Virus record (IMG/VR): IMGVR_UViG_3300042891_000811
Coordinates: 1 to 41,579 of that record
Strand: one strand, 5' to 3'
Source: a virus
DNA: 41,579 nucleotides
This document shows, piece by piece, positions 10,584 to 27,151 of the stretch. Both the position numbers and the translations under genes were made by a program. The notes under the pieces are model-generated. The model saw only the letters and a list, made by a program, of their open reading frames with translations. It was not told where the DNA came from and did not search any database. Each line of letters begins with the position of its first letter. The stretch's first letter is position 1.

Positions 10584-10618
10584 CATTTCAAATGCTCCAT
10601 CCAAATACATTATTCAAT

Positions 10619-11335: not shown

Positions 11336-12180
11336 CACTTGCCCCAGCCGTTGCCCCAAAGATCAACGTGCAGTCGGGGACTGTACCAGTAACCACGTTT
11401 GAGTGCTTCGTCAGCAACGTTGATACGATTACCATCATACACTGACACCACACCGCCCACAGGCATCACAAACACAGGACCAGCAAAGTCACGCAAGCGA
11501 TATTCATCCACGGCACGATCCAACTCGTCAAAGTCTTCCATCTTTTCAACCACAAATTTAAGATATGTGACACCTGAGGTTTCGTAGTCCCACACAATCT
11601 CGGGCTTGATAGCATCTTCCCAGGTCTCACCACTGACACTGAGCTTGGGGCTAACTGAAAATGTAATTTCACCATGCCAGCCACGCAGATACTCTTTGAA
11701 GTCTCTATGAAGTTCTTGGGTGCCGTTGGTTTCAAAAGTGATGTGTCGCAGTCCATTACGATGCAACACATCCAACAACTCTGGATAGGCTTTTTGCCAG
11801 CCCAACAGCGGCTCACCGCCAGTGATCACAAGATGCACAGGATTGCCATTGGGTTGCAACCAATGCTGGTGCGGCAACAATGCTGTGATTTTTTCAACTA
11901 GTTCTTCAACTTTGTAGGTGGGGCTTAGATGTTTGAATGCTGGATGCCATGAAGCATAGCTGTCACAGCCAGTGTTTACCAGCGGAAGTTCTTCAAACGT
12001 CTTGTACAGACTCACAGTCTTTGCAACTTCGTCCGCTTCGGGACTCTTCTTACCGGGCTTGCAGCCAAACCCCGAGCAGGTAAAGTTGCATCCAAACATA
12101 CGCAAGAACACGCTGGGAACACCAACATAGCGTCCTTCGCCTTGTGCTGAATAAAATAATTCGCTTACTTTAAATTTCAT
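11335..12180 (-). CDS. queE: 7-carboxy-7-deazaguanine synthase QueE (radical SAM), 281 aa
   Basis: QueE converts 6-carboxy-5,6,7,8-tetrahydropterin to 7-carboxy-7-deazaguanine. The start SELFYSAQGEGRYVGVPSVFLRMFG is the family signature (substrate loop 'QGEG', then 'FxRxxGCN'). The cluster Cys are C31 and C35 (CNFTC). The third, normally in WCDT/S, appears to be C72 in TGCDSYASW, after an insertion of about 36 residues, although C40 is an alternative. Further hallmarks are VITGGEPLL, ITFETNGT and FSVSPKLSVSG. This long-insertion form is the one I associate with phage and some bacterial QueE. It belongs with FolE, QueD and the DpdA-like enzyme to the same pathway. Its ATG overlaps the upstream stop (ATGA). 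Confidence 0.93.
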   Translation of the reverse strand: MKFKVSELFYSAQGEGRYVGVPSVFLRMFGCNFTCSGFGCKPGKKSPEADEVAKTVSLYKTFEELPLVNTGCDSYASWHPAFKHLSPTYKVEELVEKITALLPHQHWLQPNGNPVHLVITGGEPLLGWQKAYPELLDVLHRNGLRHITFETNGTQELHRDFKEYLRGWHGEITFSVSPKLSVSGETWEDAIKPEIVWDYETSGVTYLKFVVEKMEDFDELDRAVDEYRLRDFAGPVFVMPVGGVVSVYDGNRINVADEALKRGYWYSPRLHVDLWGNGWGK

Positions 12181-12836: not shown

Positions 12837-12839
12837 GTA

Positions 12840-13367
12840 TCAATTGTTCCACCAGTTTTCCCAGGGAAACACTATCCACTCATCACGTTCACGTTTGTTG
12901 ATCTGTTTGGCATGGTAGTTGACTCTGGTCATAGAGTTGCTGGCAGCGTTGTTGTATAAACAAGCAACTCGAACATTGTGACCCCAGATACTGTTCCAGT
13001 CTGGGTCATTTGGCATGCAACCACTGGGCCAATCCTCGCGGATCCAGTTTAGGGTTGCCCCACTGTCATTGATGTCATCTACAATTAAAATATTTTTTCT
13101 AAGCTCGGGCACACTCTTGCCATCTTGGTAGCCAAATGCATCCTCGGCCATCCAAAGATTACTTTCACACTCGCCGCCATCACGCAGGCTAATTTTGAGT
13201 GTTTCCATTCTGCAATGTAGATAGTGCGCTATCATAGTAGCGGGCACTAGGCCGCCTTTGGTTATCCCAACAATATAATCAGGATACCACTGATCCGAGT
13301 GCAGTTCCCTGCACAAGGTTTGTACCTGTTGTTCCACGTCTTGCCATGTTAGATGCGTTTGTATCAT
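12840..13367 (-). CDS. phosphoribosyltransferase-like protein (PRTase type I), 175 aa
   Basis: The PRPP-binding signature ILIVDDINDSGATL (about residues 94-107) is the canonical type I PRTase loop (V-D-D-x-x-x-T/S-G), preceded by YIVGITKGGLVPATMIAHYL, the usual 'G.s.GG..pA..ia..l'. Length fits xanthine/hypoxanthine-type PRTases and related phage proteins. Such enzymes join a base to ribose-5-phosphate. It could act in salvage of bases released by host DNA breakdown or of a deazapurine; the second idea is inference. The first 89 bases overlap the C-terminus of the upstream radical SAM gene in another frame, and the conserved N-terminal helix shows the start is right. Confidence 0.8.
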   Translation of the reverse strand: MIQTHLTWQDVEQQVQTLCRELHSDQWYPDYIVGITKGGLVPATMIAHYLHCRMETLKISLRDGGECESNLWMAEDAFGYQDGKSVPELRKNILIVDDINDSGATLNWIREDWPSGCMPNDPDWNSIWGHNVRVACLYNNAASNSMTRVNYHAKQINKRERDEWIVFPWENWWNN

Positions 13368-15288
13368 TGCCCATTCTTTCTACAGTTGATTTACCAAAAT
13401 TTCTTCGTCTAGCAAAGTAAAACAGTTCCAGGAACTTGGGAAAGCTCATGGCCTTGTCCTCGGGAAAGTCCAGTTCGTATGTCACTTGATTTTTTTCCAA
13501 GGGACGATCAAATGTCAAGTACTCCCAGATGTTGTAGTCTAGCTCTAACTTCTGTGGATACTCAGCAACAGCATCATACGCAATCAAATACTTGCGCTGA
13601 AACTTCATGGCGCTTTCCAACAAGTCTTCAGGCAGGTCGTATCTCAACATAAACTGCCTTAGCCGGTCGAACATGTTATTATACTGCTTTTCTACATGCA
13701 AGTTCAAGATAGTTCGGTGAATTAAGTTCCATCCGTGTATCTCAATTCCGCCAATGTTGGGGTGGCGAATCTGTCCTTGCGTCATCCAATTGGAAAAATA
13801 CTGGCGCACTTCAGTTTGTTCTTTGACAAACCAAGGATCCTTTTGCAAGTATTCAAACAGGTCTTCATAGAACTCACTGTAGTCAACTTCACAGTACTTG
13901 TTGACCAATCTGCTGAGCAAGGTGCTAACACCATTGATGTGGAATGTGTTGATGTACCAAGAGAAAATCTCAGCATCCAACATAGTTTCAAAAGGCAAGT
14001 CCTTGGTTGACGTAATAATGTCAATGCCTTCTTCAATGTGTTCGTTTGAGTATGATCCTGAGAAATAGTCAGTCACACGTTGTGATCCAATTTTGAACAA
14101 TTTTTTCTGGAGCAGATTCATCTCTGCATTTTCCAACAACTGTGCTTGGAACACTGTAAGGCCTGTGTGGTTGCCCATGCGGAACAGTTTCCAAAAATTG
14201 TCTTTCCAACTTTGCAAACTTTCGCCAGGTAATCCTAGAATCAGTTCTGTATAAGTTGGAATGTTACGTTGTTCGCACAGCTCAAACACTTCTTCCAACT
14301 TGTTCATTTCCATGTTTTTTCTACGGATATTTTCCAAGACGTCAACATCAAGACTCTGTACTGATAACGTAAGACCTTGGTTGAATCCTGGAGCATCAAG
14401 AAGTTTCTTGACAATGTCCACAACTTCTTTCTTTTGGTTCTTTGCCCACGCCACACTGAAAGTTTTTGGGTAGCCGTACTTGCTTTGTATTTCAATAATC
14501 TTGTCTGCAATAAGGTTATCACGCTGGGGGAACATACCAAAGTTTGCATCAGTGATACTGATAAACCCACACCGGTGTGTTGCCATCCATTCCAGTTCAT
14601 CATAAACTCTTTGTGCATCAAAGTGTTTGACTTTGTTGTAGGTCAAACTGCCCCAGTCACAGAATGTACATGCAAACGGACAACCACGATTGGTTTCCAA
14701 TGTACCGTTCCATTCAACGTCGGGATTTTCAGCAACAATCTTGTCAAACACGCCTGACAAGTAAGGGCTGGGAATGTCTTCCAGGGCTTCGATACGTTTG
14801 GCATCACCAGTGTTGACTGCTTCACCATCTCGATTGACCAGCAGGCCAGGAATTTCTTCCCAGTTCTTGTCTTCAAACGCTCGGATAACTTTGCGGAATG
14901 TGATTTCGCCTTCAAAGCAAATCACAAGATCCATGTAGGATTCTTTACGGAACAGATCTTTGTCGGTGACGGCAGGTTCGGGCCCACCAAATACAATCAA
15001 ACAGTTGGGGTTGCGTTCCTTGACCAGTCGAGCCAAGGTATAGTTGTACTGATGGTTCCACACATAGGTACTAAATGCCACAACATCGTTTTGCGCAAGT
15101 TTTTCAGCCAAGGGCTCCACAGCGTCTCTGCGCCATACTATATCAGTACACTCAAAGTTTTCTTTGACCCAGGGATCGGTTAGCGCATAACTCCAAATTA
15201 CTCCTGCCGAATAGGGCAGATAATGAGCGTTGAGCTCTTTGGGGCCTTGTTGAAAGTTGGGTTGTACCCATGCAATTTTGTATGTCAT
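13279..15288 (-). CDS. cobalamin-binding radical SAM protein, 669 aa
   Basis: The N-terminal 150 residues form a B12-binding-like Rossmann domain (DVVAFSTYVWN, then CLIVFGGPEPAV; 'GGP' is typical), though the classical DxHxxG is not obvious. Next comes ETNRGCPFACTFCDWG with the CxxxCxxC cluster motif (about 203-210), then ITDANFGMF and ELILGLPGES, all standard for B12-dependent radical SAM enzymes. The C-terminal 250 residues are a long helical extension. Family members carry out methyl transfers and other radical reactions on unactivated carbon; the substrate is unknown. A TAAATA element lies 4 bases before the ATG with no Shine-Dalgarno, so it may use a late promoter directly. Confidence 0.85.
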   Translation of the reverse strand: MTYKIAWVQPNFQQGPKELNAHYLPYSAGVIWSYALTDPWVKENFECTDIVWRRDAVEPLAEKLAQNDVVAFSTYVWNHQYNYTLARLVKERNPNCLIVFGGPEPAVTDKDLFRKESYMDLVICFEGEITFRKVIRAFEDKNWEEIPGLLVNRDGEAVNTGDAKRIEALEDIPSPYLSGVFDKIVAENPDVEWNGTLETNRGCPFACTFCDWGSLTYNKVKHFDAQRVYDELEWMATHRCGFISITDANFGMFPQRDNLIADKIIEIQSKYGYPKTFSVAWAKNQKKEVVDIVKKLLDAPGFNQGLTLSVQSLDVDVLENIRRKNMEMNKLEEVFELCEQRNIPTYTELILGLPGESLQSWKDNFWKLFRMGNHTGLTVFQAQLLENAEMNLLQKKLFKIGSQRVTDYFSGSYSNEHIEEGIDIITSTKDLPFETMLDAEIFSWYINTFHINGVSTLLSRLVNKYCEVDYSEFYEDLFEYLQKDPWFVKEQTEVRQYFSNWMTQGQIRHPNIGGIEIHGWNLIHRTILNLHVEKQYNNMFDRLRQFMLRYDLPEDLLESAMKFQRKYLIAYDAVAEYPQKLELDYNIWEYLTFDRPLEKNQVTYELDFPEDKAMSFPKFLELFYFARRRNFGKSTVERMGNDTNASNMARRGTTGTNLVQGTALGSVVS

Positions 15289-15292
15289 CAGC

Positions 15293-15298
15293 TATTTA
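15293..15298 (-). promoter_or_regulatory. TAAATA late-type element 4 bases before an ATG
   Basis: Minus strand GCGTAAATAGCTGATG. The TAA is also the stop codon of the GT2 gene. There is no Shine-Dalgarno between it and the ATG of the radical SAM gene. Confidence 0.4.
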
Positions 15299-16129
15299 CG
15301 CTTTTGTTTTGTGTGGGTTGGCAAACTGCACCATTTGGCTATTAACGTCGTTTTCGGCTAATCTTTGCCAGGGATCTTGTGTGCCTTTAAAAATGTTTTC
15401 AAAGAATTCTATGCTTATACCAACTGAACGCATGTATGTGGCCAGTTTGGCACAGTCTCGGTGCCGCAAATCAATTTGTTGCACACTGTGGAAATCTCTA
15501 GGATCATCAGGCTTGCCTTCCAGCATGGGACGATTTTGAAAGATTTCGTCCCCGTTGTTGCCAGTAAGATCAAAGCGATCATGCAACACTTCAACGTTGA
15601 TACGTTGATAGATGTCCAGCATGTAAGCGGTTTGACTAACCCAACCATCCTGTGTGGGATGTGGGCTGATGTAACCAAGAATATCGTACCACTTGCGCGG
15701 TACAATAGGAAAGATGCTGTAAGGGTGCATGCGATGAGTTTTGAAGCTCAACAGTTTGAACTGCCCTTCATAATTCATGATGGTAGTATCCCATCCTTTG
15801 CTTTCCATTACAGCATCATCATTCCAGATAACCAACCAACGACTGCTACTACCCTTGGCCATGGCATTGTTGTACTTGTGCAGATTCACATAGCCCATGC
15901 GCTTGAAACGCATGGCTGTGTAGTTGACATCACGTGCGTCCATCCAAGGCTGAAGTTCATCCTTGAAATACTTGAATCCAACTTCGTCATCATCGTCAAA
16001 CGCAAACATCAACTGAACACGACTGGGGTTGTCTGCCAGTTCAATCAAACTGCGAATACTGCGCCCAAGAATTTCTGTGCGACCACGTGTGGCCAACAGC
16101 ATAGCAATATCGTATTTTGGTTCACTCAT
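15296..16129 (-). CDS. glycosyltransferase family 2-like protein, 277 aa
   Basis: GT-A fold pattern: IAMLLATRGRTEILGRSIRSL (strand, loop and first helix), LMFAFDDDDEVG (nucleotide contact), NNAMAKGSSSRWLVIWNDDAVMESKGWD, where the DDA/DxD-like motif binds the metal and the UDP- or GDP-sugar. The middle and C-terminal parts have the acceptor-side features seen in phage family 2 transferases (HPTQDGWVSQTAYMLD). It is the gene upstream of the B12 radical SAM protein and downstream of QueD, with 11 bases between. It would transfer a sugar to an unknown acceptor. Confidence 0.8.
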   Translation of the reverse strand: MSEPKYDIAMLLATRGRTEILGRSIRSLIELADNPSRVQLMFAFDDDDEVGFKYFKDELQPWMDARDVNYTAMRFKRMGYVNLHKYNNAMAKGSSSRWLVIWNDDAVMESKGWDTTIMNYEGQFKLLSFKTHRMHPYSIFPIVPRKWYDILGYISPHPTQDGWVSQTAYMLDIYQRINVEVLHDRFDLTGNNGDEIFQNRPMLEGKPDDPRDFHSVQQIDLRHRDCAKLATYMRSVGISIEFFENIFKGTQDPWQRLAENDVNSQMVQFANPHKTKA

Positions 16130-16140
16130 CTAAAACTCCA

Positions 16141-16638
16141 TTATGCAAATAAATCTTCATTCCACTCACGGTGGCCTTCACGGAAAGCCATGTTAGCCTG
16201 CGTCTCACGTACTTCCACACGATAGCACCACAAACGTTCTGCTTCGCCTGGCCCCCACAGTTCAGGAATGTAAACACCATTCACATACTTGTACAGCATG
16301 TCAGCAAGACCTTCGCAACCCAATCGAGGTAATACTACCACTTTGGCCATGTTCCGCTCTTGAAGCAGTTTGTATGTAGCCATTTCTGGATCATCTTGTG
16401 CCACAATAAGTGTATGGTCAAACTGATCTTCCAAGGTCTTCTTGAGTTCTTTTAAACCACCATAGTCGGCAGCCCAGTTGCGCACATCTAGGTCATTGGT
16501 ACCAAAGTAAAACTTCATACTGAATGAATATCCATGGATCAAATTACAATGACTGTCTGCCCTCCACTGTCTATACGCACATGGAAATGCGTCGTGATAC
16601 TCTTTGGTTGAGGTATATTTGTAAACTACTGGTTGCAT
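16141..16638 (-). CDS. queD: 6-carboxytetrahydropterin synthase QueD-like protein, 165 aa
   Basis: T-fold (6-pyruvoyl-tetrahydropterin synthase) enzyme, acting after FolE in 7-deazaguanine synthesis. Seen: DSHCNLIHGYSFSMKFYF (catalytic Cys C31, His H30 and H35), FDHTLIVA (catalytic Asp74-His75), CEGLADMLY and VEVRETQANMAFR (pterin-anchoring Glu145). The usual zinc motif C-x3-HGH here reads HGY, so the third zinc ligand is replaced by Tyr or supplied by another His (H15 or H30). This change may define the phage-type QueD. It has its own sigma70-type promoter and an AGGAGAAACAGC ribosome-binding site, so it heads a transcription unit. Confidence 0.88.
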   Translation of the reverse strand: MQPVVYKYTSTKEYHDAFPCAYRQWRADSHCNLIHGYSFSMKFYFGTNDLDVRNWAADYGGLKELKKTLEDQFDHTLIVAQDDPEMATYKLLQERNMAKVVVLPRLGCEGLADMLYKYVNGVYIPELWGPGEAERLWCYRVEVRETQANMAFREGHREWNEDLFA

Positions 16639-16656
16639 GCTGTTTCTCCTATGTTA

Positions 16657-16686
16657 ATTATAGCATAGGCTGGCAGAGTTTGTAAA
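16657..16686 (-). promoter_or_regulatory. sigma70-type promoter for queD
   Basis: TTTACA (16681-16686), 18-base spacer, TATAAT (16657-16662) on the minus strand, in the 83-base gap between the PP-loop gene and queD. The expected start near 16650 gives a 12-base leader that contains the ribosome-binding site. Confidence 0.78.
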
Positions 16687-16721
16687 GCGGGATGAAGCCA
16701 AAGACCGCTGTAAAGAACTAT

Positions 16722-17585
16722 TTACCCAAGTAATTGTGCAAGCAGTTGTTCTCTAGAGCCCAACAACGCACAATCTCTAGTTCCCCAATATTGCTTGCAT
16801 TGGTCTCGAATTTTTTTAATATTTGGTTCAAACACATCTCGATGGTACATGTATTTTGGTCTATGCACTGTGCCGTAAATTTTGGCTTTGTTTTCTTGCA
16901 TGGTTAGGGCAGTATCCCATTCTGATACAAAACTGGCCATGATCTCAGCGTTCCAATAATAAAATGCCCAGGGATGTTGGTTTGGCACCAAGGTCTCTAC
17001 ATAGAGGTCAGCTTCTTCCATAACAAAGCCATTGTAGTTGCCCAACACTGGTCTAAGATATTCCATCTGTTCGTGGTCAGGATAGTATTCAAGTTGAAAG
17101 CCAGACACTATGTGTCCACCTAGCTTCTGCACAGTATCCAAGATTAAACCATGCGTCACTGTGCCATAACCAAGTCGCGGTTTAATAATCGAAGTATATT
17201 GTTTTTCTGTTTTACTGTTGGCATAGTTACCCACGTCAACCACAAGAGGTTTTATGTTGTTTTTCTTGCACCATTGTTGCGCCCACCACATTTCTAATTT
17301 TTGATCATTGTGGCGAGTTGCATCGTATGTTATCAAGATTGGGGTAAACGGAATACCCATGCGCAAAAACGTGTTGGCAACGTTTTCACTGTCACTGCCA
17401 CCACTCATGGTAATGTATAAATTTTTATGTGTGCTATATATTTCTTCGGCCACGCGGTCGCAAGCAGTGTTAAAGGGCAAGAGCTCTTTGGCCCGGCTGT
17501 TGATTTTGACTGCAATGTTTTCAGGACCTTGTCTAGTAGGTAGTCCGTCCCAGGATAAATCAATCCAGGAATCTTTACAGAGCAT
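16722..17585 (-). CDS. PP-loop ATP pyrophosphatase family protein, 287 aa
   Basis: The N-type ATP-PPase motif NLYITMSGGSDSENVANTFL (SGGxDS with Glu) lies near residue 60 and is followed by a strand with ITYDATRHND and a helix EMWWAQQWCKKNNIKPLVVDV, as in QueC, NAD synthetase and PAPS reductase relatives. The enzyme would adenylate an acid or carbonyl substrate. QueC would be the expected partner of QueD/QueE, but its C-terminal Zn cluster (C-x8-CxxCxxC) is absent; only two Cys (Q-C-K, D-C-A) lie near the end. It may be a divergent QueC analogue or a different ligase. It overlaps the Rieske stop by 11 bases. Confidence 0.75.
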   Translation of the reverse strand: MLCKDSWIDLSWDGLPTRQGPENIAVKINSRAKELLPFNTACDRVAEEIYSTHKNLYITMSGGSDSENVANTFLRMGIPFTPILITYDATRHNDQKLEMWWAQQWCKKNNIKPLVVDVGNYANSKTEKQYTSIIKPRLGYGTVTHGLILDTVQKLGGHIVSGFQLEYYPDHEQMEYLRPVLGNYNGFVMEEADLYVETLVPNQHPWAFYYWNAEIMASFVSEWDTALTMQENKAKIYGTVHRPKYMYHRDVFEPNIKKIRDQCKQYWGTRDCALLGSREQLLAQLLG

Positions 17586-18396
17586 TACGCATCCAATCTC
17601 TGTGATGTTGTTTTAATTCGTCAATGTTATCGGTAGCTGGTGCTAGAATATTTTTGGCCAACGCACGATCTTGTTCCCACGCTGTTTCCCAAACAATACT
17701 GTTGTTGCTCCAGTCCAGCATACTGTATCTGGTGTCACGATATTTGTACACCTGCACTCGGCTACCTTGTGGATCGGGCAGTGCTACTGTTACAAACAAT
17801 GCACCTGGTTGCCACTCAATCATGGTACCTGGATAAACTGCCATCCAACAAGCCGACATATTGTATTTTAAGTCATCTTCGTGAAGGTATTGATTGTCTT
17901 GCACTGGTACAATTTGCAAACTGCCATTGCTGAACAGGCTCCAGTGCAACTCTTCAACAGTGGTAATACCAATCTTGTCATACACACCCGGATGTGCTAC
18001 TGGAATGTGCTCGATGTCCAAGAACACATCCATTACAACGTTGGGTGCGGCTTGCACAATGTCTTCACGCTGTTGCATCAACTGCATGTGCTGGGTGTCA
18101 ATGGGAAACACACAGTCAACATGCTGGTCAAACAACATGGTTTGATTTGCATAACACGGCAAAGTTTCTAACTCAAGCTCATGATCAATACCTTTACCGG
18201 CTAATGAGTATTCAAGACCATGATAAGGACATTTTAAATGCTGTGTTGGCTCACAGGCAATGCGACTGTTTTGATGTGGGCAAACATTGCTGATCATGTA
18301 AAATTGATCAACATGAGCAAGACAGAGATTTTTATTGTGTTGCTCTAACGGCTTTACAGTATGATTGGCAACATCTTGTTTGAGCGCAAGAAACAT
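17575..18396 (-). CDS. Rieske non-heme iron oxygenase-like protein, 273 aa
   Basis: The start MFLALKQDVANHTV at 18396 begins one base after the HIT stop. The Rieske [2Fe-2S] motifs are C39-P-H41 in SNVCPHQNSRIACEP and C56-PY-H59 in LKCPYHGLEY, with 14 residues between. The catalytic domain has DVFLDIEHIPVAHPGVYD, i.e. D127-x2-H130-x4-H135, the 2-His-1-carboxylate iron site of ring-hydroxylating oxygenases, and a C-terminal acidic candidate in WEQDRALAKN. The size is at the short end for the alpha subunit. Such enzymes hydroxylate, demethylate or otherwise oxidise organic substrates and need an electron donor from the host. Co-location with queD and folE makes a modified base or pterin a possible substrate (inference). 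Confidence 0.87.
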   Translation of the reverse strand: MFLALKQDVANHTVKPLEQHNKNLCLAHVDQFYMISNVCPHQNSRIACEPTQHLKCPYHGLEYSLAGKGIDHELELETLPCYANQTMLFDQHVDCVFPIDTQHMQLMQQREDIVQAAPNVVMDVFLDIEHIPVAHPGVYDKIGITTVEELHWSLFSNGSLQIVPVQDNQYLHEDDLKYNMSACWMAVYPGTMIEWQPGALFVTVALPDPQGSRVQVYKYRDTRYSMLDWSNNSIVWETAWEQDRALAKNILAPATDNIDELKQHHRDWMRNAL

Positions 18397-18397
18397 A

Positions 18398-18799
18398 TTA
18401 GGGTTGTTGGTATCCAGGTTTGTGATAGTTGGCCTGACCAGCAACGACCCCACGAACGCCGCCTACGGGATCTGCACAATCGCCCGCACGTCTTGGAATA
18501 AGATGCACATGCGGGTACATCACTGTTTGTCCAGCCACTTCACCTATATTTACACCAACGTTGAAGCCTTGGCATTGTCCAGTTTCTACCAGTTTGCGTC
18601 CAATAAGCCAAGCATTGCCCATGGCTACTAAAATATGTTCGTCGCTGTTTTCTCGTGGCACAAACAACAAGTGGCCCTGTGTGACTGGATAACGATCCTG
18701 ATACACCATGATGTGTTCGTTACACAGTTCGTCAACTGCAAAGTCCCAAGGCGCTACGCCATTGGCCTGTGCCATTTTTAAGTTAGCATATCTTATCAT
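18398..18799 (-). CDS. HIT-family nucleotide hydrolase/transferase-like protein, 133 aa
   Basis: The HIT signature appears as VAGQTVMYPHVHLIPRRAGD near residue 90. The second and third His of the motif are present (H-V-H), with the middle (catalytic) His kept, while the first is Tyr. Upstream VYQDRYPVTQGHLLFVPRENSDE corresponds to the usual 'd.yPvspGH.Lvip..H' strand. HIT enzymes hydrolyse or transfer AMP from Ap4A, AMP-lysine, ADP-sulfate and similar adducts. Here it might remove AMP intermediates formed by the adjacent PP-loop enzyme, an inference from the overlapping gene order. The start overlaps the upstream stop (ATGA) with CCGGAGAAATTC as ribosome-binding site. Confidence 0.85.
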   Translation of the reverse strand: MIRYANLKMAQANGVAPWDFAVDELCNEHIMVYQDRYPVTQGHLLFVPRENSDEHILVAMGNAWLIGRKLVETGQCQGFNVGVNIGEVAGQTVMYPHVHLIPRRAGDCADPVGGVRGVVAGQANYHKPGYQQP

Positions 18800-19473
18800 G
18801 AATTTCTCCGGTATATGGGTAAACAGTATTTAGAGTCATTAAAAACTGTGTGTTTAATTCTAAGTTCCATCCTGGTTTTGCCTTTGTAGATTTTGATATC
18901 CACAAGAGCAGGATCAGCTATGCTGGTCACCTGCATGCTTTCACGATTGAATTTACAAGACTCTGCTAGATAACCAACAGGTGTGTCTTGCACTTGAAAT
19001 CCAGCAATAGAACATTCCAGAGTGTCTTTGTTTCTAAATATCACCAACAAATAATAGTTTTTAATTGTCCGTGCCTTAGCGAGCCAGCCATCCACAAACA
19101 TCTGCCACAGCGCCAGCTTGTCTTGTGTTCGAAAATATTCAGCCACACGCTCAACCTGCAAGTATTGATACATGCTGGCTTCTGTGGTTGACCGTACACC
19201 CATCTGCACACTCTTGACATCAAATCCAATGTCTTCGCCGACCTGCACATCAATAATACTTTTGCCAGCACCACACCAAGTGGCACCGTCAATACTGTCA
19301 GCCACAGCATATTCCCAAAGCTCTTTGCCTAGGCTCAGTGGGCGACCTTGATCTAGATATTTTTTCAATGGCTGCAACACTGCATCCATTTCTTGTTGAA
19401 ACCTAGCTACAAAGTCCTTGCCCAAGATCTGTTGTGTTTGTTCAACAGTCATTGGCACAAGACAGTAGGTCAT
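18796..19473 (-). CDS. possible PD-(D/E)XK nuclease-like protein, 225 aa
   Basis: No family is certain. Residues 48-60 (LGKELWEYAVADS) could be the first helix with its Glu, followed by GATWCGAGKSIIDVQVGEDIGFDVKSVQ, i.e. D75 and D85-V-K87, spaced as in the PD-(D/E)XK restriction-enzyme core (Asp, about 9 residues, D/E-x-K). The rest has strands and helices (YYLLVIFRNKD, AGFQVQDTP) in keeping with a restriction-type fold. It could be a restriction-like nuclease that spares modified DNA, or a repair enzyme. The gene is ATGA-coupled to FolE upstream and HIT downstream. The active-site assignment is inference. Confidence 0.5.
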   Translation of the reverse strand: MTYCLVPMTVEQTQQILGKDFVARFQQEMDAVLQPLKKYLDQGRPLSLGKELWEYAVADSIDGATWCGAGKSIIDVQVGEDIGFDVKSVQMGVRSTTEASMYQYLQVERVAEYFRTQDKLALWQMFVDGWLAKARTIKNYYLLVIFRNKDTLECSIAGFQVQDTPVGYLAESCKFNRESMQVTSIADPALVDIKIYKGKTRMELRIKHTVFNDSKYCLPIYRRNS

Positions 19474-20213
19474 CGTGGTGCAAAGTCCTGTTGTAGTTTG
19501 ATATTGTCAAAGAATTCCTTCTTTACACTTTGGTCAGTTTTAAATAACCCACGGAGTACTGTTGTTTGGGTAAGACTACTGTGAGCCATAATACCACGAT
19601 TCTCGCAACATCCATGGGTAGCCTGAATATAAACTGCCACATCCTTTGATCCGGTTGCAAATTCAATCTCACGAGCAATGTCCATACAGAGTTCTTCTTG
19701 TAGTGTTCCTCGTCTTGCGCACCACTGCGCGATCCGAGTGTACTTGGATAAACCAATGAGTTTGGGGCCAGCAATGATTCCAATATAAGCCACACCCGCA
19801 ACAGGTTGGTGATGATGGCTACACATGCTCTTAAGCTCTGAACGCACCACAAGCATACCGTCGTATGCTCCGTCCGTATCGTTCGGGAAAGCCGTAGCAT
19901 TAGGGCTCGTCTCATAACGGCCAGACATGATTTCGTTGAAGTACATTTTAGCAAGACGCCGGGCCGTGCCTTGTGAGTTTGGGTCATTTTCTCTGTCAAT
20001 TAGTAGTGCGTCAAGTACACCTTCAAACGCTGTTGTGGCTTCATTGATTAGTTGCTCTTTCATTGACTCGTCAATGTACTCGCTAACGTTATCGCCAGCC
20101 CAGAATCTTTTTCCATCACGTTTGAACTTAAAGCGAAGGTGATCGCAAACTTTGCCTAGGCCGTAGCCACCGTCTCCAGCCATTGCGTCTAGTGCTGTTT
20201 CTTTATTTGTCAT
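19470..20213 (-). CDS. folE: GTP cyclohydrolase I (FolE), 247 aa
   Basis: The enzyme converts GTP to 7,8-dihydroneopterin triphosphate, the first step of both folate and 7-deazaguanine synthesis. Seen: LKSMCSHHHQPVAGVAYIGII (zinc C131 and H133/H134), IGLSKYTRIAQWCARR (the 'GLSK.aRi...y.rR' signature), LQEELCMDIA, and VYIQATHGCCENRGIMAHSS with the third zinc Cys (C202/C203). All catalytic motifs are intact. Length is close to bacterial FolE (222 aa) with an N-terminal extension. It starts 1 base after the DegT gene stop. With QueD and QueE it completes the first three steps to 7-carboxy-7-deazaguanine. Confidence 0.95.
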   Translation of the reverse strand: MTNKETALDAMAGDGGYGLGKVCDHLRFKFKRDGKRFWAGDNVSEYIDESMKEQLINEATTAFEGVLDALLIDRENDPNSQGTARRLAKMYFNEIMSGRYETSPNATAFPNDTDGAYDGMLVVRSELKSMCSHHHQPVAGVAYIGIIAGPKLIGLSKYTRIAQWCARRGTLQEELCMDIAREIEFATGSKDVAVYIQATHGCCENRGIMAHSSLTQTTVLRGLFKTDQSVKKEFFDNIKLQQDFAPR

Positions 20214-20214
20214 G

Positions 20215-20802
20215 TTAGTCCTTGATAGTGATTGTTCTTAAATCTGGATAGTTAACTTGTCGAGGTGACGGGCAGTGTTCTTTAAGTCCTTCCAGCATTG
20301 CAATACCTTGTATAGCTTCTTCTGGTGTGGGCTTGTAGTGATAGCCAACTCTAAATTCTTTTTGACTAATCCAGGGTTTGATATTTAGATCACGCCCATC
20401 ATACCGCATACGAATAATTGCATCGTATGCTGCCTTGTCATCTAACAGTATAGCACCTCCACGGCCTATATGTAAAGGCTTGTCATGCCCAAAACTCAGG
20501 CATTGTATCTGTCCCAGTCGATACATATTCTTTTCTAGCCTACGAGCACTATCCCAGATACGTGTGCCATGAAGACGGTACTCGCCTGTCCATTCTTCCT
20601 CTTTGTAGTAATACTTGATTCCCAATTTGTGCATGGTCATAGCAATGCTCAAATATGTGTAAGGAGTCATCACAACTTCTTTCACCCGGTCATGCCGCAA
20701 ACACAGCTCAATAGCATGTGTACAGCAATCGGTCATGACGGCATAAGGGGCACCAGTAAACTCTGCCAGTGCGTCTTCAAACTGTTTGATTTTTTCGAAC
20801 AT
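20215..20802 (-). CDS. short DegT/DnrJ/EryC1-type PLP aminotransferase-like protein, 195 aa
   Basis: The N-terminal FTGAPYAVMTDCCTHAIELCLR corresponds to 'ALAVSNGTaALhLAL', EVVMTPYTYLSIAMTMHKLG to 'VI.P.fTF.ATa.ai...G', and IQCLSFGHDKPLHIGRGGAILLDD to the Schiff-base lysine motif ('FSFh.tK.lt.GeGGAi'; K108). The usual C-terminal domain of these about 370-aa sugar aminotransferases is missing, so it is a short form; it may be a truncated or specialised phage version. If active it could aminate a nucleotide-linked keto sugar, in line with the adjacent GalE. It overlaps the GalE stop by 26 bases. Confidence 0.75.
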   Translation of the reverse strand: MFEKIKQFEDALAEFTGAPYAVMTDCCTHAIELCLRHDRVKEVVMTPYTYLSIAMTMHKLGIKYYYKEEEWTGEYRLHGTRIWDSARRLEKNMYRLGQIQCLSFGHDKPLHIGRGGAILLDDKAAYDAIIRMRYDGRDLNIKPWISQKEFRVGYHYKPTPEEAIQGIAMLEGLKEHCPSPRQVNYPDLRTITIKD

Positions 20803-21736
20803 ACCAATTCCATGCGTGTTGTATCATGTCATCAAGCTCAAAGTTACGCCAATGAACCAGTTTGTTAAATTTGTCTGCACAGGCAGTGAGAACAGGGGGA
20901 TCGCCTTCGCGACGAGCTTCTACACCAATGTAAGGCGTTTTGCCGATGATAGTTTTTGCCTGCTTCATTACTTGTATAACACTGAACCCCTGATTTGATC
21001 CAAGGTTATAGATGCCTGCAGGAACAGTTGGAGACAATGCCAAAACGTGTGCTTGAGCAATATCTGCAACATGTACATAATCCCTGATGCAAGTACCATC
21101 AGCAGTAGGATAGTTATCACCATATACTCTAAATTGTCCATCGTCTCTTGTGGCTTCTAAAAACCGAGCAATCAAGTGTGTGGCACCCGGTTCTTGTCCG
21201 TGCCTACCTTTGGGGTCAGCACCACAGGCATTGAAGTAGCGAAAGCTAACATAGTTTAGATTATATGCTTGGCGATAAGACTCCAACATCATATCAATCA
21301 TCAACTTGCTCTCACCATAGGGACTGATAGGCAAGCAAGGATCAACTTCGTTGCAGGCATCTAGCACAGGATTGCCATAAGTTGCGGCACTGGAACTAAA
21401 AATAACTTTGCAACGTGGCAAACTACGACGTACAACGTCCAGCAGTCGCAACGTCTTGACCACATTGTTGTTGTAGTATTCTGCAGGATCCTGCATTGAC
21501 GGCCCAACAAGGCTGGTGCCAGCACAGTGGATAATAGCATTGGGTTGTTTGCTGATAATCCAACTTAATGCCGCATCGCTAGCAAAATCTTCACGCAAGA
21601 ATCCATCACAAACATCTGCCAAGTGTCGTGGCGGTGACCTACGATCAATGCCGTACACCGAGTGCCCCGAATCTTTCAATAACAGAGCAGTTTGTCCACC
21701 AATGTATCCAGCCGAGCCGGTGACAATTACATTCAT
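20777..21736 (-). CDS. galE: UDP-glucose 4-epimerase-like SDR (GalE), 319 aa
   Basis: An extended short-chain dehydrogenase. The start MNVIVTGSAGYIGG at 21736 gives the NAD-binding TGxxGYIG at once and overlaps the upstream stop (ATGA). IIHCAGTSLVGPSMQDP, SSSAATYGNP and PISPYGESKLMID (YxxxK active site) are typical, followed by SFRYFNACGADP and GTCIRDYVHVADIAQAH, both GalE hallmarks. Length (about 320-340 aa) is normal. It interconverts UDP-Glc and UDP-Gal or similar. The glycosyltransferases in the window are plausible users of its product. Confidence 0.92.
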   Translation of the reverse strand: MNVIVTGSAGYIGGQTALLLKDSGHSVYGIDRRSPPRHLADVCDGFLREDFASDAALSWIISKQPNAIIHCAGTSLVGPSMQDPAEYYNNNVVKTLRLLDVVRRSLPRCKVIFSSSAATYGNPVLDACNEVDPCLPISPYGESKLMIDMMLESYRQAYNLNYVSFRYFNACGADPKGRHGQEPGATHLIARFLEATRDDGQFRVYGDNYPTADGTCIRDYVHVADIAQAHVLALSPTVPAGIYNLGSNQGFSVIQVMKQAKTIIGKTPYIGVEARREGDPPVLTACADKFNKLVHWRNFELDDMIQHAWNWYVRKNQTV

Positions 21737-21930
21737 CCTTGTTTCCTTTGTGGATAATAGTAGTGGCATTCATGACGATAAGGATACCAATCTCCTGCCA
21801 TGCCACCCAAGTGTTGTAACGCACACCGAGCTCGATCTTCTGTCTCATTCATTTTGGCAATCCAAGGCGTTGCTTTTTGAGCCACAATATACTGCTTGAG
21901 ATAGCTAAAACTTTGTTCACGAGGCAACAT
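21733..21930 (-). CDS. hypothetical protein, 65 aa
   Basis: The start at 21930 (MLPREQSFSYLKQYIV) is chosen because AAGG stands upstream and it overlaps the previous gene only slightly. The protein is soluble, with a helical first half and a Tyr/His/Cys-rich end (GDWYPYRHECHYYYPQRKQG) that could bind a metal, though no standard motif is formed. Function unknown. Confidence 0.6.
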   Translation of the reverse strand: MLPREQSFSYLKQYIVAQKATPWIAKMNETEDRARCALQHLGGMAGDWYPYRHECHYYYPQRKQG

Positions 21931-22054
21931 ATCTGCCTTGACTCCTACGCCACACAACATCAAATGTATTGGGATTTAACATGACTTCCCAACCTTGAGG
22001 AATGTGCTCAGGGAACAGACTTGTTTTGCCGTTGCTGTGTTTGTATAGTTTCAT
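21917..22054 (-). CDS. very small protein, 45 aa
   Basis: It opens MKLYKHSNGKTSLFPEHIPQG and ends SQGRYVAS. The ATG overlaps the TGA of the glycosyltransferase gene (ATGA), and the stop lies inside the next gene's first codons, so it sits in a fully coupled run. The sequence 'LFPEHIPQGWEVMLNPNTFDV' looks like a real folded peptide. No function known. Confidence 0.6.
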   Translation of the reverse strand: MKLYKHSNGKTSLFPEHIPQGWEVMLNPNTFDVVWRRSQGRYVAS

Positions 22055-23486: not shown

Positions 23487-23497
23487 TTTATTTTCCT

Positions 23498-23950: not shown

Positions 23951-24450
23951 AATTTTTGATCCTGTTTATAATCATCCCACGAAGTAAATGTTCTACGGCT
24001 CATTAAGCTATGTAGACTATGACACCAGACCCCAGGATTGGTTGCCGCAAAGTCTTTGTCATCTATTTTTAACATTGTATTATAATTCCACAGCTTTGTA
24101 TACGGTACACTTACTCGAATTTGTGGAATAAAATTTTGATAGTCGCAAAGAGGACCATCGTTAAACTCTTCCACGTGCGTGATTGGGATATCCAAACTGC
24201 ACAAGTGGCCGTCACGCAAGAATGGCTCGATCATGCTTTCCCAATGTTGCCATTCTGATCTGTCAACAGGATGAAAACTGTGGTTAGCACCAAAGAAAAT
24301 GTGTTCACACTGTTCATTGGCTAGATGCTGTTTGATTTCAGTATAAGATTGAACTCCAACTACAAACAGTGTCTTTTTACCAAATGCTGGTGTGCGTTCA
24401 ACTTCAGTGCCTACAAAAAAGTTGACGTTGTCGTGACCTTCGCGGTTCAT
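23947..24450 (-). CDS. conserved protein of unknown function linked to the deazaguanine genes, 167 aa
   Basis: It starts MNREGHDNVNFFVGTEVERTP and continues AFGKKTLFVVGVQSYTEI, CEHIFFGANHSFHP, GHLCSLDIPITHVEE and CDYQNFIPQIRVSVPYT, ending with a region NPGVWCHSLHSL. Strand/helix repeats and short Cys/His stretches suggest an alpha/beta fold. It is sandwiched, with ATGA overlaps, between the T-fold protein and the DpdA-like gene, so a role in the same pathway is likely. 'FFVGTEVE.TPA.G.KTLFVVG' looks like a well-defined family, which I cannot name. Confidence 0.72.
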   Translation of the reverse strand: MNREGHDNVNFFVGTEVERTPAFGKKTLFVVGVQSYTEIKQHLANEQCEHIFFGANHSFHPVDRSEWQHWESMIEPFLRDGHLCSLDIPITHVEEFNDGPLCDYQNFIPQIRVSVPYTKLWNYNTMLKIDDKDFAATNPGVWCHSLHSLMSRRTFTSWDDYKQDQKL

Positions 24451-26060
24451 TGTGTTGCTTCTAATTGATCAAGTTTATCGGTATCCAGATCCTCGGGTTC
24501 GGTCTCTGGCTCTTCAAAGCTAAACAATGCATTAAATTGTGTACGTGCGTTCATGGTCTTCTTGCCTTTAAACCCACGTGTGCCCACAATCTGCATCCAG
24601 TAGCCACTGTACAATTGTATGATATCTTCGGCAGTTTGTCTATCCGGTGCGGCAAAAATAGCTTCCACAATGTCTTCAAAACGAGCATAGTCTCCCCCAT
24701 CTCTGCGCATCATGGCCGGATGTTCTCCACGATCAAAACGCTGATTGGCTTCTTGTACCGCAGTTAGGTGCATCCAAACATTGTGTCCCATGAGCAGAGC
24801 ATAGCTAAAACTATCCCAGGATGTTTTGCCCCACTTGCCGTTTTTGTTAACATCAGGCAACACATCATACAATGCAGGGTCTTGAAAGTTTGCTGGGGTA
24901 AGAGTAACGCCGGGTTTTGGAACGCCCGACTTGTAGATACAAATATCCTTCATGGTCAACATGTCACTTATAGGACTGTCAGTCCAGTTAGGATAGATAC
25001 CGTCTGCAACAACGCCAGTGCTCCACTTGCGAGTGTCTGTGCTGTACTTTTTGTCATCGGCTGAAGGAGCCATACGATAACTCCACTTTGAATCATGTTC
25101 AAATACATTTTCGTAGTATACTTGTCCATTGGCTGTGGCAAGGAATGGGCTGGCACAATCAAAGGAAATAGTAAAAGCCGGGTTAACGTATTTTCTAACT
25201 GCCCTTTGAATCACGGTGAGTAGCACAGCCCATTCCAACTTTGATGTTCCCAAAAAGTGCATCCAGTCATGTTTGCCCTCTTGTAACAAATTATCGTAGC
25301 GCAAGGCAACTAGTCGGCGTAACACCAGGTGAACGTCGCACATGTTCTGACCACCCATGCTCCACCCATTGAAGTGAGTGTCTGGATACTTTACTGGGTC
25401 ACAATATTCCTTCATGATCTCATACCATTCGTCTGCACTGGTATGATTGTCACCTTGCAGTACATTTAGAATCTTGGTGCCACCATTGGCAACACCTTTA
25501 CGATGCTTCATGAAGTATTCGTTGTTGAACTTGGTGGCATCCACTGCTTCTTGCAGTGTGGAGATTTGACAGGCCTTGCTTGCTGTCTTGTCATGAATAA
25601 CCCAAGTCGGAATATCCAGTGTCATGCAGTAATCAGAAACGTTGTCTAGCCAGTTAAGAACTAACTCACGTTTCTTTTGAGCCTTGGCACACCCCGAGTT
25701 GGCTCGCCAATCACCTTCCCACAAGCCCTTGGCAATCTGGAAACCGCCTGAATCTCCCAAGAGAAACGTGCCTGGCTCACGGTTCCGTACCATGTCTTCT
25801 GACCAATCTTGTTTGTTAAGATCAAGATTAGCATGGCCCCCAGATGCAAGTGACCAACGATAAGGAAACAACGCCTTGTTGGAATTAAGCCAGTTAAGCT
25901 GTTCTATATCAGCAAGTCCCTGAGGGAATCGTGCTGGATCCACATAGTGTTCGTTCCTTTGCCGTCCCACAAATGTGGCATAGAATCCCGAGATGGCTGG
26001 AAGGAACACAGCGTAGTCTGATTGTTTGGCGGTGAGATTGTCTTGAGTTGGTTCTGTCAT
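24447..26060 (-). CDS. dpdA: DpdA-like tRNA-guanine-transglycosylase homologue (DNA 7-deazaguanine transglycosylase), 537 aa
   Basis: Phage DpdA proteins exchange guanine in DNA for a 7-deazaguanine. The sequence matches the TGT superfamily at every landmark: FLLGDSGGFQIAKG (D103, the general 'DSGGFQ' motif), TKILNVLQGDNH (cf. 'IVQGG'), HFNGWSMGGQ (cf. 'gyaiGGl.vge'), HFLGTSKLEWAVL (cf. 'lmGvgtpedll') and AFTISFDCASPFLAT (D301, the nucleophile motif 'FDCv.PTR'). The zinc CxCxxC+H site of tRNA enzymes is not clear. At 537 aa it is longer than bacterial TGT (about 375 aa). With FolE, QueD and QueE on the same strand, DNA modification is the obvious role; tRNA as target is less likely. Confidence 0.85.
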   Translation of the reverse strand: MTEPTQDNLTAKQSDYAVFLPAISGFYATFVGRQRNEHYVDPARFPQGLADIEQLNWLNSNKALFPYRWSLASGGHANLDLNKQDWSEDMVRNREPGTFLLGDSGGFQIAKGLWEGDWRANSGCAKAQKKRELVLNWLDNVSDYCMTLDIPTWVIHDKTASKACQISTLQEAVDATKFNNEYFMKHRKGVANGGTKILNVLQGDNHTSADEWYEIMKEYCDPVKYPDTHFNGWSMGGQNMCDVHLVLRRLVALRYDNLLQEGKHDWMHFLGTSKLEWAVLLTVIQRAVRKYVNPAFTISFDCASPFLATANGQVYYENVFEHDSKWSYRMAPSADDKKYSTDTRKWSTGVVADGIYPNWTDSPISDMLTMKDICIYKSGVPKPGVTLTPANFQDPALYDVLPDVNKNGKWGKTSWDSFSYALLMGHNVWMHLTAVQEANQRFDRGEHPAMMRRDGGDYARFEDIVEAIFAAPDRQTAEDIIQLYSGYWMQIVGTRGFKGKKTMNARTQFNALFSFEEPETEPEDLDTDKLDQLEATQ

Positions 26061-27132: not shown

Positions 27133-27151
27133 ACAGTTCTCCTAAGTGTGT

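Follow-up and report, generated by a model that had tools for sequence, protein, structure and literature searches.

The stretch of viral DNA analysed, referred to as the window, comprises positions 1 to 41,579 of the IMG/VR record IMGVR_UViG_3300042891_000811. Between folE and queD, on the minus strand, it contains four codirectional genes, which overlap or abut and encode a nuclease-like, a HIT, a Rieske and a PP-loop protein. The features of this region are the following:

24447..26060, minus strand: putative divergent DpdA-like guanine transglycosylase, 537 aa (motifs and hhalign)
20777..21769, minus strand: GalE-like nucleotide-sugar epimerase (PF01370, E 5e-51), a backbone gene
20215..20802, minus strand: short DegT/DnrJ aminotransferase-like protein (PF01041, E 1e-18), a backbone gene
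19470..20213, minus strand: FolE, GTP cyclohydrolase I (PF01227, E 2e-39, over the Pfam cut-off)
18796..19473, minus strand: PD-(D/E)XK-like nuclease candidate, 225 aa (conserved motif columns), an accessory gene
18398..18799, minus strand: HIT protein (PF01230, E 7e-8), a backbone gene of the folE-queD region
17575..18396, minus strand: Rieske non-heme iron oxygenase, 273 aa (PF00355, E 5e-8, over the cut-off); the open frame reaches 18453
16722..17585, minus strand: PP-loop (N-type ATP pyrophosphatase) protein, 287 aa, asparagine-synthetase-like (SGGxDS, predicted fold)
16639..16721, minus strand: conserved element 5′ of QueD (hairpin, promoter-like sequence, palindrome)
16141..16638, minus strand: QueD, 6-carboxytetrahydropterin synthase (PF01242, E 2e-15, over the cut-off; PHROG 2389, E 6e-36)
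15296..16129, minus strand: glycosyltransferase-like protein (PHROG 14945, E 1e-9; no Pfam match)
13279..15288, minus strand: B12-dependent radical SAM enzyme, KedN5-like (NF033712, E 1.7e-79, 268 bits, below the cut-off of 700)
12840..13367, minus strand: xanthine/guanine-type phosphoribosyltransferase (PF00156, E 1.5e-13), a recurrent accessory of que operons
11335..12180, minus strand: QueE-like radical SAM enzyme (PHROG 2076, E 1e-52; NCBIfam QueE models, E 1e-14, below the cut-off)

From FolE to the PP-loop gene the open reading frames, as listed, overlap by 4, 4, 56 and 11 nt, and an 83-nt gap separates the PP-loop and QueD frames. The listed Rieske frame (17575-18453) opens with a GTG at 18453, which is probably not the true start; since the homologues begin with MFL, the start is placed at the ATG at 18396, 1 nt past the HIT stop. 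The set of four overlapping or abutting genes between queD and folE that a sequence-only reading had singled out is confirmed by these coordinates. The arrangement is not due to chance: the order FolE-(HIT)-Rieske-PP-loop-QueD is found again in divergent contigs with approximately 50-60% identity in the Rieske and 50-56% in the PP-loop protein (90% for the PP-loop protein of L006 and L007).

The expected product of the QueE-like enzyme is 7-carboxy-7-deazaguanine (CDG), and a homologue of the phosphoribosyltransferase is part of the folE-queD-queE cluster of phage BUCT-ZZ01. The protein encoded at 24447..26060 has no match in Pfam, PHROG or NCBIfam; PF01702 finds no DpdA-like protein in any of four contigs at E 0.1, nor did the protein align to the single 9g DpdA. 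It contains the motifs DSGGFQ, QGDN, GGQ, LGTS and SFDCASP, which we take to be of the DpdA/TGT catalytic type, and hhalign against the phage queuine-transglycosylase family gives a probability of 95.3% (E 2.4e-8, 198 columns). As judged from its sequence, it is a divergent DpdA-like transglycosylase, with base exchange as its putative activity.

The assignment of the Rieske oxygenase, already made from the sequence, is borne out by intact metal-ligand motifs and by the fold. DxxHxxxxH plus a distal Asp is the mononuclear iron motif of Rieske oxygenases, and these residues (D127, H130, H135 and D243), as well as the [2Fe-2S] ligands CxH and CxxH (C39, H41, C56 and H59), are invariant in 20 of 20 aligned sequences. 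The predicted structure (pLDDT 92) has the alpha-subunit fold and matches terephthalate dioxygenase 7q06 (Z 22.8, rmsd 2.9, 267 residues), which leads the fold matches together with CntA; SxtDIOX, SxtT, CntA and NdmA lead the sequence-profile matches. Metal ligands and fold are shared with SxtT/GxtA, NdmA, CntA and terephthalate dioxygenase, from which the phage protein is set apart by its length of 273 residues and by the absence of a PF00111-type ferredoxin from the phage contigs (10 of 10, mostly fragments), the host being a possible source of electrons. One pattern-based genome scan yielded no full-length cellular relative.

The PP-loop protein, in which approximately 35 residues precede the PP-loop domain and the N-terminus reads Met-Leu-Cys, carries an SGGxDS pyrophosphatase loop that is invariant in all 26 aligned homologues. 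Pfam returns ATP_bind_3 alone, at 0.027 and below the cut-off, and the finer assignment is not unanimous across methods. The best VIA-align match of the model (pLDDT 81) is human asparagine synthetase 9b6c (Z 13.9, rmsd 4.2, 252 residues, 12% identity), and asparagine, beta-lactam and carbapenam synthetases lead the fold ranking at Z 12.2-13.9 (e.g. 1mc1, Z 13.3; 1q19, Z 12.8), while NAD synthetase, NcsA and LarE score Z 10.8 or less. Foldseek alone places TtuA first, with MnmA also at the top (TM-scores below 0.45); by sequence profile, NAD synthetase (E 2e-8) and the TtuA/NcsA thiolases come first; NCBIfam gives a weak TilS match, and PF00733 appears only at E 0.036, for one relative (L152). 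A synthetase domain of the asparagine-synthetase type is the best fit to the model of the protein, and the adenylating type that had been proposed for it agrees with this fold match of a predicted structure. It is not a glutamine-dependent asparagine synthetase of the AsnB type, as the N-terminal Cys1 glutaminase domain is missing. Nor is it QueC, being absent from the PF06508 matches over the cut-off and devoid of the C(x)8CxxCxxC zinc motif (no CxxC occurs in the sequence).

How far the four genes belong together was assessed in 29 loci chosen via the conserved upstream DpdA-like gene, each showing both folE and queD. Between the latter two, a HIT gene is found in 27 loci, a PP-loop gene in 6 and a Rieske gene in 3, one of them being this phage, so that the majority of the sampled operons do without the cassette (23 lack the PP-loop gene and 26 the Rieske gene). 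The proposal that the four genes form one system is, therefore, not sustained: HIT is a backbone gene, the nuclease-like gene a separate accessory and the Rieske-PP-loop pair an optional cassette. HIT proteins had been thought to clear AMP adducts left by the PP-loop enzyme; as 21 of the 27 HIT-bearing loci have no PP-loop gene, they are not present just for that purpose. The full triad of HIT proteins is HxHxH; here, despite a PF01230 score of 33.5 bits against a cut-off of 21.5, it reads YxHxH, the first His being a Tyr, in 8 of 8 aligned sequences.

The hallmark of PD-(D/E)XK proteins is a set of conserved acidic residues with a (D/E)xK, and the 225-aa protein displays it in the GKELWE, DV and DVKS columns: GKELWEYAV and DV..DVKS are conserved in the 16 members aligned out of a family from 23 viral contigs. 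The PD-(D/E)XK-like call, accordingly worded as that of a candidate nuclease, stands beside the absence of any Pfam match and a PDB sequence search with one unrelated match (E 1.4). The gene lies between FolE and HIT with Rieske absent in L236, L237 and L240, and no Rieske gene was found beside the family (up to 4 kb per side) in the 21 loci, out of 23, that do not belong to this phage; it appears to be independent of the Rieske-PP-loop pair.

Within the pair, the PP-loop gene lies directly downstream of the Rieske gene, on the same strand and with an overlap of 4-17 nt, in 28 of 30 contigs with a complete Rieske gene. Its members are not strictly co-travelling, since in L006 the PP-loop protein is 90% and the Rieske protein 55% identical to that of the window. 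In all contigs of the scan for a second PP-loop subtype (16 of 16), QueD follows the PP-loop gene, either immediately or at a distance of one to two genes. An aminotransferase-like partner shares this stretch in 14 of them and is the direct neighbour in 10; the remaining two contigs are truncated on the side concerned. The element at 16639..16721 comprises a hairpin (AGCGG..CCCGCT), a promoter-like TTTACA-18-TATAAT (16686-16657), which is among the two best sigma-70 matches in positions 10000-28000 (11 of 12 positions), and a palindrome (CCTATG..CATAGG); it is conserved, in varying form, in 8 filled loci and in 10 of 15 HIT-only loci. The putative insertion point of the cassette is just before this promoter-like element of queD. 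Gene order, families, folds and conserved motifs, together with the optional and swappable nature of the pair, are direct results of the computation.

Our tentative interpretation, rated somewhat below even, is that the Rieske and PP-loop proteins are an optional tailoring cassette, found in some large uncultured phages, on a 7-deazaguanine DNA-modification operon that probably exchanges DNA guanines for 7-deazaguanines; the ligase would amidate CDG and the Rieske enzyme oxidise it, as a hypermodification of the bases that the DpdA-like protein installs. We infer the substrate, the order of the steps, DNA as the final location and the product as follows: (i) FolE, QueD and the QueE-like enzyme would produce CDG; (ii) the DpdA-like protein would insert CDG, or a compound derived from it, into phage DNA in place of guanine; (iii) the PP-loop protein would adenylate the free CDG carboxylate with ATP and ligate an amine to yield an amide, taking over the carboxylate with QueC not detected in this phage's contigs; and (iv) the Rieske enzyme, with electrons supplied by the host, would then oxygenate the amide, the side chain or the base. 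Related phages have the aminotransferase-like enzyme and its own PP-loop subtype in the same interval, which would lead to different final bases from one handle. The general form of this scheme, with CDG as a carboxylate handle on DNA and interchangeable cassettes of an asparagine-synthetase-like ligase and a partner (Rieske or aminotransferase-like) giving different amide hypermodifications, the synthesis of one such DNA base then involving a Rieske oxygenase, is conceivable but less likely than not. The supposed link to deazaguanine DNA modification is supported by the presence of a DpdA-like gene within the run of genes that includes the cassette and by the constant place of the second PP-loop subtype upstream of queD.

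The neighbourhood of the Rieske gene supports the link in part. In 24 of 32 Rieske contigs folE and/or queD adjoin the gene; in the other 8 (L069-L076) it lies outside the que operon, and FolE, QueD and QueE were not found in flanks of approximately 1-10 kb per side. The sequence-only reading had named occurrence of the four genes in many phages without FolE, QueD or DpdA as evidence against itself, and the 8 contigs make this half the case, although 4 of them hold QueD elsewhere and 2 hold a DpdA-like gene and FolE. One of the 8, G007 (73 kb), has the pair and a syntenic DNA polymerase-to-exonuclease stretch without DpdA-like gene, FolE, QueD or QueE. Furthermore, in G009, G011 and G012 QueD is 86-93% identical to that of this phage and of G003, and Rieske 33-37%, so that co-occurrence with QueD partly reflects shared ancestry. 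Where annotated, the neighbours in the 8 contigs include genes for fatty-acid (FA) desaturase, FabA, ACP, ketoacyl synthase and AMP-ligase: FA-desaturase, FabA, ACP and ketoacyl synthase in L074; FA-desaturase, cupin and ketoacyl synthase in L070; FA-desaturase in L069; and an AMP-binding ligase in L075. With such fatty-acid/polyketide-like genes near the pair, and with GalE, DegT and glycosyltransferase genes on the flanks of folE/queD in most of the loci that extend far enough, the pair might be a phage small-molecule module, which forms an amide bond on and oxygenates an acyl or sugar-linked compound (a virion glycan, a lipid or a secreted metabolite) and sits in the que operon merely by position, beside GalE, DegT and glycosyltransferase genes possibly of the same pathway. 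This is a serious competitor, although less probable than the tailoring cassette. Against it, the scan for the second PP-loop subtype gave que-operon loci only (16 of 16), and the Rieske protein is at least 44% identical to that of the window in operon loci against at most 41% outside, which fits a change of role.

That PP-loop enzymes have no place in preQ0 synthesis, as had been stated, is wrong, QueC being one according to PMC13329287, where its C-terminal zinc motif CxxCxxC is also given. The PP-loop protein could replace QueC and convert CDG and ammonia to 7-amido-7-deazaguanine or preQ0, with the Rieske reaction as an extra step. Its gene is placed between those for FolE and QueD in phages where QueC is not detected: QueC exceeds the cut-off in 0 of 4 contigs from this phage and its closest relatives, and in 1 of 14 from a wider set, two contigs being common to both. 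G012, the sole positive contig, keeps its Rieske-PP-loop pair elsewhere. However, the zinc motif as described in PMC13329287 is missing, the best fold matches are of the asparagine-synthetase type and the 9g Gat-QueC aligns at the PP-loop stretch alone, with 18% probability. Moreover, the sampled operons devoid of the PP-loop gene contain no QueC-like SGGxDS ORF of at least 150 aa, except for one of 398 aa in L199, so that a QueC-type step seems unneeded for the backbone; replacement of QueC is, on these grounds, quite improbable. Still less credit is given to an insertion hotspot, where accessory genes unconnected with deazaguanine land ahead of the promoter element of queD: the FolE-QueD interval elsewhere does hold methyltransferase-like proteins (L152, L179), a 790-aa ORF (L196) and, by eye, an FG-GAP-like repeat protein (L189) and a peptidase-like protein (L199), but it repeatedly holds two different PP-loop subtypes, whose partners mostly differ, and the scan for the second subtype located it at no other place. 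Conjugation of CDG to protein for phage-host control, in the fashion of the PP-loop relatives QatC and Cap9, which ligate CDG to partner proteins as outlined in PMC13329287, is least probable of all; it is favoured by Cap9 as a weak sequence match (E 0.21), and the DpdA-like transglycosylase encoded in the same run of genes speaks against it.

The tailoring-cassette reading may be set against systems already described. FolE, QueD, QueE and a DpdA-like protein share one phage region, as in the FolE-QueD-QueE-QueC/Gat-QueC-DpdA system outlined by Hutinet 2019 (PMC6884629); here QueC/Gat-QueC is not detected, the DpdA-like protein is too divergent for PF01702, and Rieske, asparagine-synthetase-like ligase, HIT, GalE and DegT set the locus apart from that system as described. 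CmoY, an asparagine-synthetase homologue, is described as amidating a carboxylated DNA base, 5-carboxymethylcytosine, in the CmoA-CmoX-CmoY system of 5-glycylcarboxymethylcytosine (PMC12783734). By that description, CmoY is a precedent for the phage asparagine-synthetase-like ligase, likewise proposed to act on a carboxylated base; the handle would here be CDG, an oxygenase is added and, unlike in the CmoA-CmoX-CmoY setting, a C5 DNA methylase (PF00145) is absent from 11 of 11 contigs. The QueC superfamily, including QatC and Cap9, is presented in PMC13329287 as acting on the carboxylate of CDG by the ATP chemistry of an SGGxDS PP-loop, as proposed for the phage protein, which differs in lacking the zinc motif and a PF06508 match over the cut-off and in having asparagine synthetase as its nearest fold.

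If correct, the scheme would bring oxygenase and amide-ligase reactions into the modification of DNA with deazaguanines, and would suggest that phages vary one base by exchanging cassettes of two genes at a constant position ahead of a promoter element. In Cui et al. 2023, dCDG is reportedly found in phage DNA and transglycosylases are said to accompany such bases (DpdA3, DpdL/M/N); to our knowledge, that work describes neither a Rieske enzyme nor an amide ligase. As the DpdA-like family (at least 583 of at least 599 pattern-matched stretches in IMG/VR) is missed by the profile libraries used, jumbo phages may have deazaguanine DNA more often than current counts show. Homologues annotated as hypothetical only are present in Pseudomonas jumbo phages (e.g. 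PA5oct and Paride), and in such cultured phages the transglycosylase part of the scheme is directly testable.

The window is a virus record of 41.6 kb from IMG/VR. On its minus strand, it carries a dense run of genes of the same direction extending from GalE (21769) to an exo gene (7966). Inspection of the ORFs and of the sequence confirmed that the four genes noticed between queD and folE in the sequence-only reading are real and overlap or abut, with the start of the Rieske gene probably to be shifted to 18396, since its homologues begin at MFL. The features concerned are:

24447-26060, DpdA-like gene
19470-20213, minus strand, FolE
18796-19473, minus strand, PD-(D/E)XK-like (nuclease-like) protein of 225 aa
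18398-18799, minus strand, HIT protein
17575-18396, minus strand, Rieske oxygenase
16722-17585, minus strand, PP-loop protein
16141-16638, minus strand, QueD

The DNA polymerase of the window is nearest, among cultured phages, to those of Sinorhizobium phage Phosso and Agrobacterium phage Atu_ph07, followed by other jumbo phages such as 121Q and, therefore, the window probably derives from a large-genome phage. Three tRNA genes (Leu TAA, Arg TCT and Met CAT) lie within 0.7 kb at 801-1480 on the minus strand.

The proposal that this phage has no DpdA (PF01702, 0/4 contigs) was dropped, as a divergent 537-aa protein was found at 24447-26060. It was picked by a search for the DSGG motif, its alignment displays the expected series of conserved blocks, and its profile matches the phage queuine-transglycosylase family with 95.3% probability (E 2.4e-8, 198 columns), the control, an unrelated PP-loop profile, reaching 0.2%. 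The protein could not be aligned with the single 9g DpdA and has no Pfam, PHROGs or NCBIfam match; the transglycosylase of Synechococcus phage BUCT-ZZ01 as query found nothing in eight contigs, and neither this protein nor the DpdA-like profile had a match in a PDB sequence search. The DpdA-like protein is highly conserved, and its family makes up at least 583 of 599 pattern-matched stretches in IMG/VR. Eleven records of Pseudomonas jumbo phages, such as PA5oct and Paride, contain homologues of 37% identity that are labelled hypothetical, as is the one in Phosso; in PA5oct the gene lies six genes before QueE.

Of at least 583 contigs with a DpdA-like protein, the 80 whose version comes closest to that of the window were examined. 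FolE and QueD are both visible in 29 of them; the fetched stretches of the other 51 do not include the two genes together. Between FolE and QueD of these 29 anchored loci, a HIT gene is found in 27, a PP-loop gene in six and a Rieske gene in three, one of which belongs to the window's own phage. Thus, HIT is part of a backbone, DpdA-GalE-DegT-FolE-HIT-QueD, and the Rieske-PP-loop pair is optional. On the same counts, the idea that HIT is a dedicated partner of the PP-loop protein was rejected; together with the occurrence of the nuclease-like family without Rieske, they also led to rejection of the four genes as one operon-specific system. The family of the 225-aa protein, with PD-(D/E)XK-like columns, is found in 23 contigs. 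In three of these (L236, L237 and L240) it lies between FolE and HIT with no Rieske gene; in several more it is close to exo and QueE. The HIT motif is YxHxH, rather than HxHxH, in all eight aligned sequences.

The pair itself recurs. Viral contigs matched by the PP-loop protein numbered 13 in a single-sequence scan and 20 in an alignment scan, and those matched by the Rieske protein 2 and 32, respectively. The gene families were called with profiles derived from window sequences and related ones, so that very distant versions may escape. The 18 contigs nearest the window, like L064-L067, keep the order (FolE), Rieske, PP-loop, QueD over whatever length is available, usually with HIT before Rieske. 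The Rieske stop and the PP-loop start overlap by 11 or 17 nt; HIT is absent from L006/L007 and was not recognised in L065-L067. The folE and/or queD genes stand beside the pair in 24 of the 32 Rieske contigs, a count that takes in L068 and L077, where FolE-HIT-Rieske is visible and the contig stops inside Rieske, L048 and L049, whose fetched stretch is protein-identical to the window, and contigs showing QueD alone or FolE alone (e.g. L011, L042, L044 and L047). Rieske is complete in 30 contigs, and in 28 of them a PP-loop gene comes next on the same strand; the nearest PP-loop-like genes of L069 and L071 have the opposite orientation, and in L075 the PP-loop match is weak (E 2e-4) with SGGxDS retained. 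The presence of QueD in 7/11 Rieske contigs is weak evidence of association, since the phages concerned conserve QueD far better than Rieske. Across 14 loci, Rieske and PP-loop distances are only moderately correlated (r 0.65), and L006 shows an exchange. No match to Rieske or to either PP-loop subtype was obtained by tblastn against INPHARED, and an alignment scan of genomes with Rieske matched only stretches within residues 3-115, at 17 bacterial loci. In the open-licence literature searched, no paper was found on Rieske proteins in phage genomes or auxiliary metabolism, phage DNA modification or jumbo phages; the GATOR-GC preprint contains no occurrence of Rieske.

A swap of partners, two lineages with different partners sharing one interval, is taken as the strongest sign that the PP-loop proteins act in deazaguanine metabolism. 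The three anchored loci with PP-loop and no Rieske (L152, L155 and L171) encode a protein of 301-307 aa that overlaps the PP-loop gene by 4-11 nt, carries an SLSK..RIG stretch and weakly matches class I/II aminotransferases in Pfam (E 7e-5 in L152 and 2e-4 in L171); its counterpart in L065 has no Pfam match. A scan with this second PP-loop subtype retrieved 16 contigs of about eight lineages (near-identical groups being L247/L248, L249/L250, L251/L252, L254-L257 and L258/L259). QueD lies directly or one to two genes downstream in all 16. Of these, 14 also have the aminotransferase-like gene within the stretch (adjacent in 10), the remaining two being cut on the side in question. Both subtypes and both partners coexist in L254-L256 (the contigs L065-L067). 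The scan, for which three of four query sequences came from que operons, returned no locus outside the que operon.

The cassette is placed between the HIT stop and an element of about 80 bp before queD (16639-16721 in the window), consisting of a hairpin, a promoter-like hexamer pair and a palindrome. In the loci aligned, comprising 10 of the 15 HIT-only loci and eight filled ones, the element is kept with variations; L193 deviates and L041 is shortened by the called start. The promoter-like site of the window is among the two best sigma-70 matches in 18 kb, such matches being about as frequent in the region (38) as in shuffled sequence (mean 34.8).

With regard to the proteins, the Rieske ligands (C39xH41, C56xxH59, D127xxH130xxxxH135 and D243) are kept in 20/20 sequences. 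Fold matches of the model (pLDDT 92, one model) are alpha subunits, terephthalate dioxygenase and CntA among them, at Z 21-23, and the top solved relatives of the sequence profile are SxtDIOX, SxtT, CntA and NdmA. Several of these enzymes act on nitrogen-rich small molecules, which is no more than a hint. The PP-loop model (pLDDT 81, one model) resembles asparagine, beta-lactam and carbapenam synthetases (Z 12.2-13.9) and then NAD synthetase, NcsA and LarE (Z about 9-11) among the best 50 matches, QueC and Cap9 falling outside these and not being thereby excluded. With Foldseek alone, TtuA and MnmA came out on top at TM-scores below 0.45, and the sequence profile ranked NAD synthetase first. 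A 5-carboxymethylcytosine system was rejected (PF00145 in 0/11 contigs), as were identification with glutamine-dependent AsnB, there being no glutaminase domain, and with QueC, there being neither a CxxC zinc motif nor a PF06508 match over cut-off. An amine-using ligase such as CmoY might likewise do without the glutaminase domain. The same phages encode additional PP-loop proteins with SGGxDS (380-443 aa), some of which match the PP-loop profile weakly, and, by eye, an SGGIDSS protein resembling NAD synthetase; in the contigs G001 and G003 they lie at:

G001 25518-26723, 119949-121280 and 122887-124071, further SGGxDS PP-loop proteins
G003 197952-199229, 199210-200400 and 204223-205365, further SGGxDS PP-loop proteins
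G001 22373-23251 and G003 105502-106386, SGGIDSS protein

QueC over cut-off was found in none of four contigs from this phage and close relatives, and in one of 14 from a wider set; that one is G012, in which the Rieske-PP-loop pair lies outside the que operon. In the 80 anchored loci, SGGxDS proteins of at least 150 aa comprise only the PP-loops and one 398-aa protein (L199). Since the records are mostly fragments, the absence of QueC may be only apparent; if it holds, the backbone of most of these phages would stop at 7-carboxy-7-deazaguanine (CDG), the carboxylate of which would be free for a ligase.

From the families, folds and gene order observed, we infer the substrates, step order and product of a pathway in which FolE, QueD and QueE would lead to CDG; the DpdA-like enzyme would put a deazaguanine in the place of guanine in DNA; the PP-loop enzyme would adenylate and then amidate the carboxylate, before or after insertion; and the Rieske enzyme would oxidize the amidated product with electrons from host donors. 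PF00111 ferredoxin was found in 0/10 contigs. Published relatives are the FolE-QueD-QueE-QueC-DpdA phage pathways (PMC6884629) and the CmoX/CmoY system (PMC12783734); QatC and Cap9 are known examples of PP-loop enzymes that ligate CDG (PMC13329287). The locus is filed as a variant of phage 7-deazaguanine modification, its most novel step being a proposed one.

A xanthine/guanine-type phosphoribosyltransferase, perhaps a nucleotide-level entry of the deazaguanine base, is found at varying positions in que operons (window 12840-13367, L125 11303-11764, L115 640-1233 and L199 18598-19179), also in that of the cultured phage BUCT-ZZ01. In the window, a KedN5-like B12 radical SAM protein (13279-15288) lies between glycosyltransferase and phosphoribosyltransferase genes; relatives of this protein are found both in cassette-bearing loci and in cassette-free ones.

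Against the deazaguanine reading, the Rieske-PP-loop module can probably also work outside the que operon, since Rieske is away from que genes in eight of the 32 contigs (L069-L076, of which L074 and L076 are apparently the same phage) and the 73-kb contig G007 holds the pair with the DpdA-like gene, FolE, QueD and QueE absent, syntenic place included. Neighbours in the eight contigs include FA-desaturase-like, FabA, ACP, ketoacyl synthase and AMP-ligase genes; QueD is found elsewhere in four of them, and FolE with the DpdA-like gene in two. Rieske identity to the window is at least 44% in the operon and at most 41% outside, a split that would fit, without showing, a change of substrate. G007 47219-62418 (mostly in L070), with ketoacyl synthase, cupin, Rieske and PP-loop genes and eight ORFs like one FA-desaturase-like protein of G003 (BLAST; two confirmed by Pfam), looks like a phage region for polyketide- or polyyne-like biosynthesis. 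In L074 (8260-13744), from a 364-kb phage contig, FA-desaturase, Rieske, PP-loop, FabA-like, ACP and ketoacyl synthase genes are clustered.
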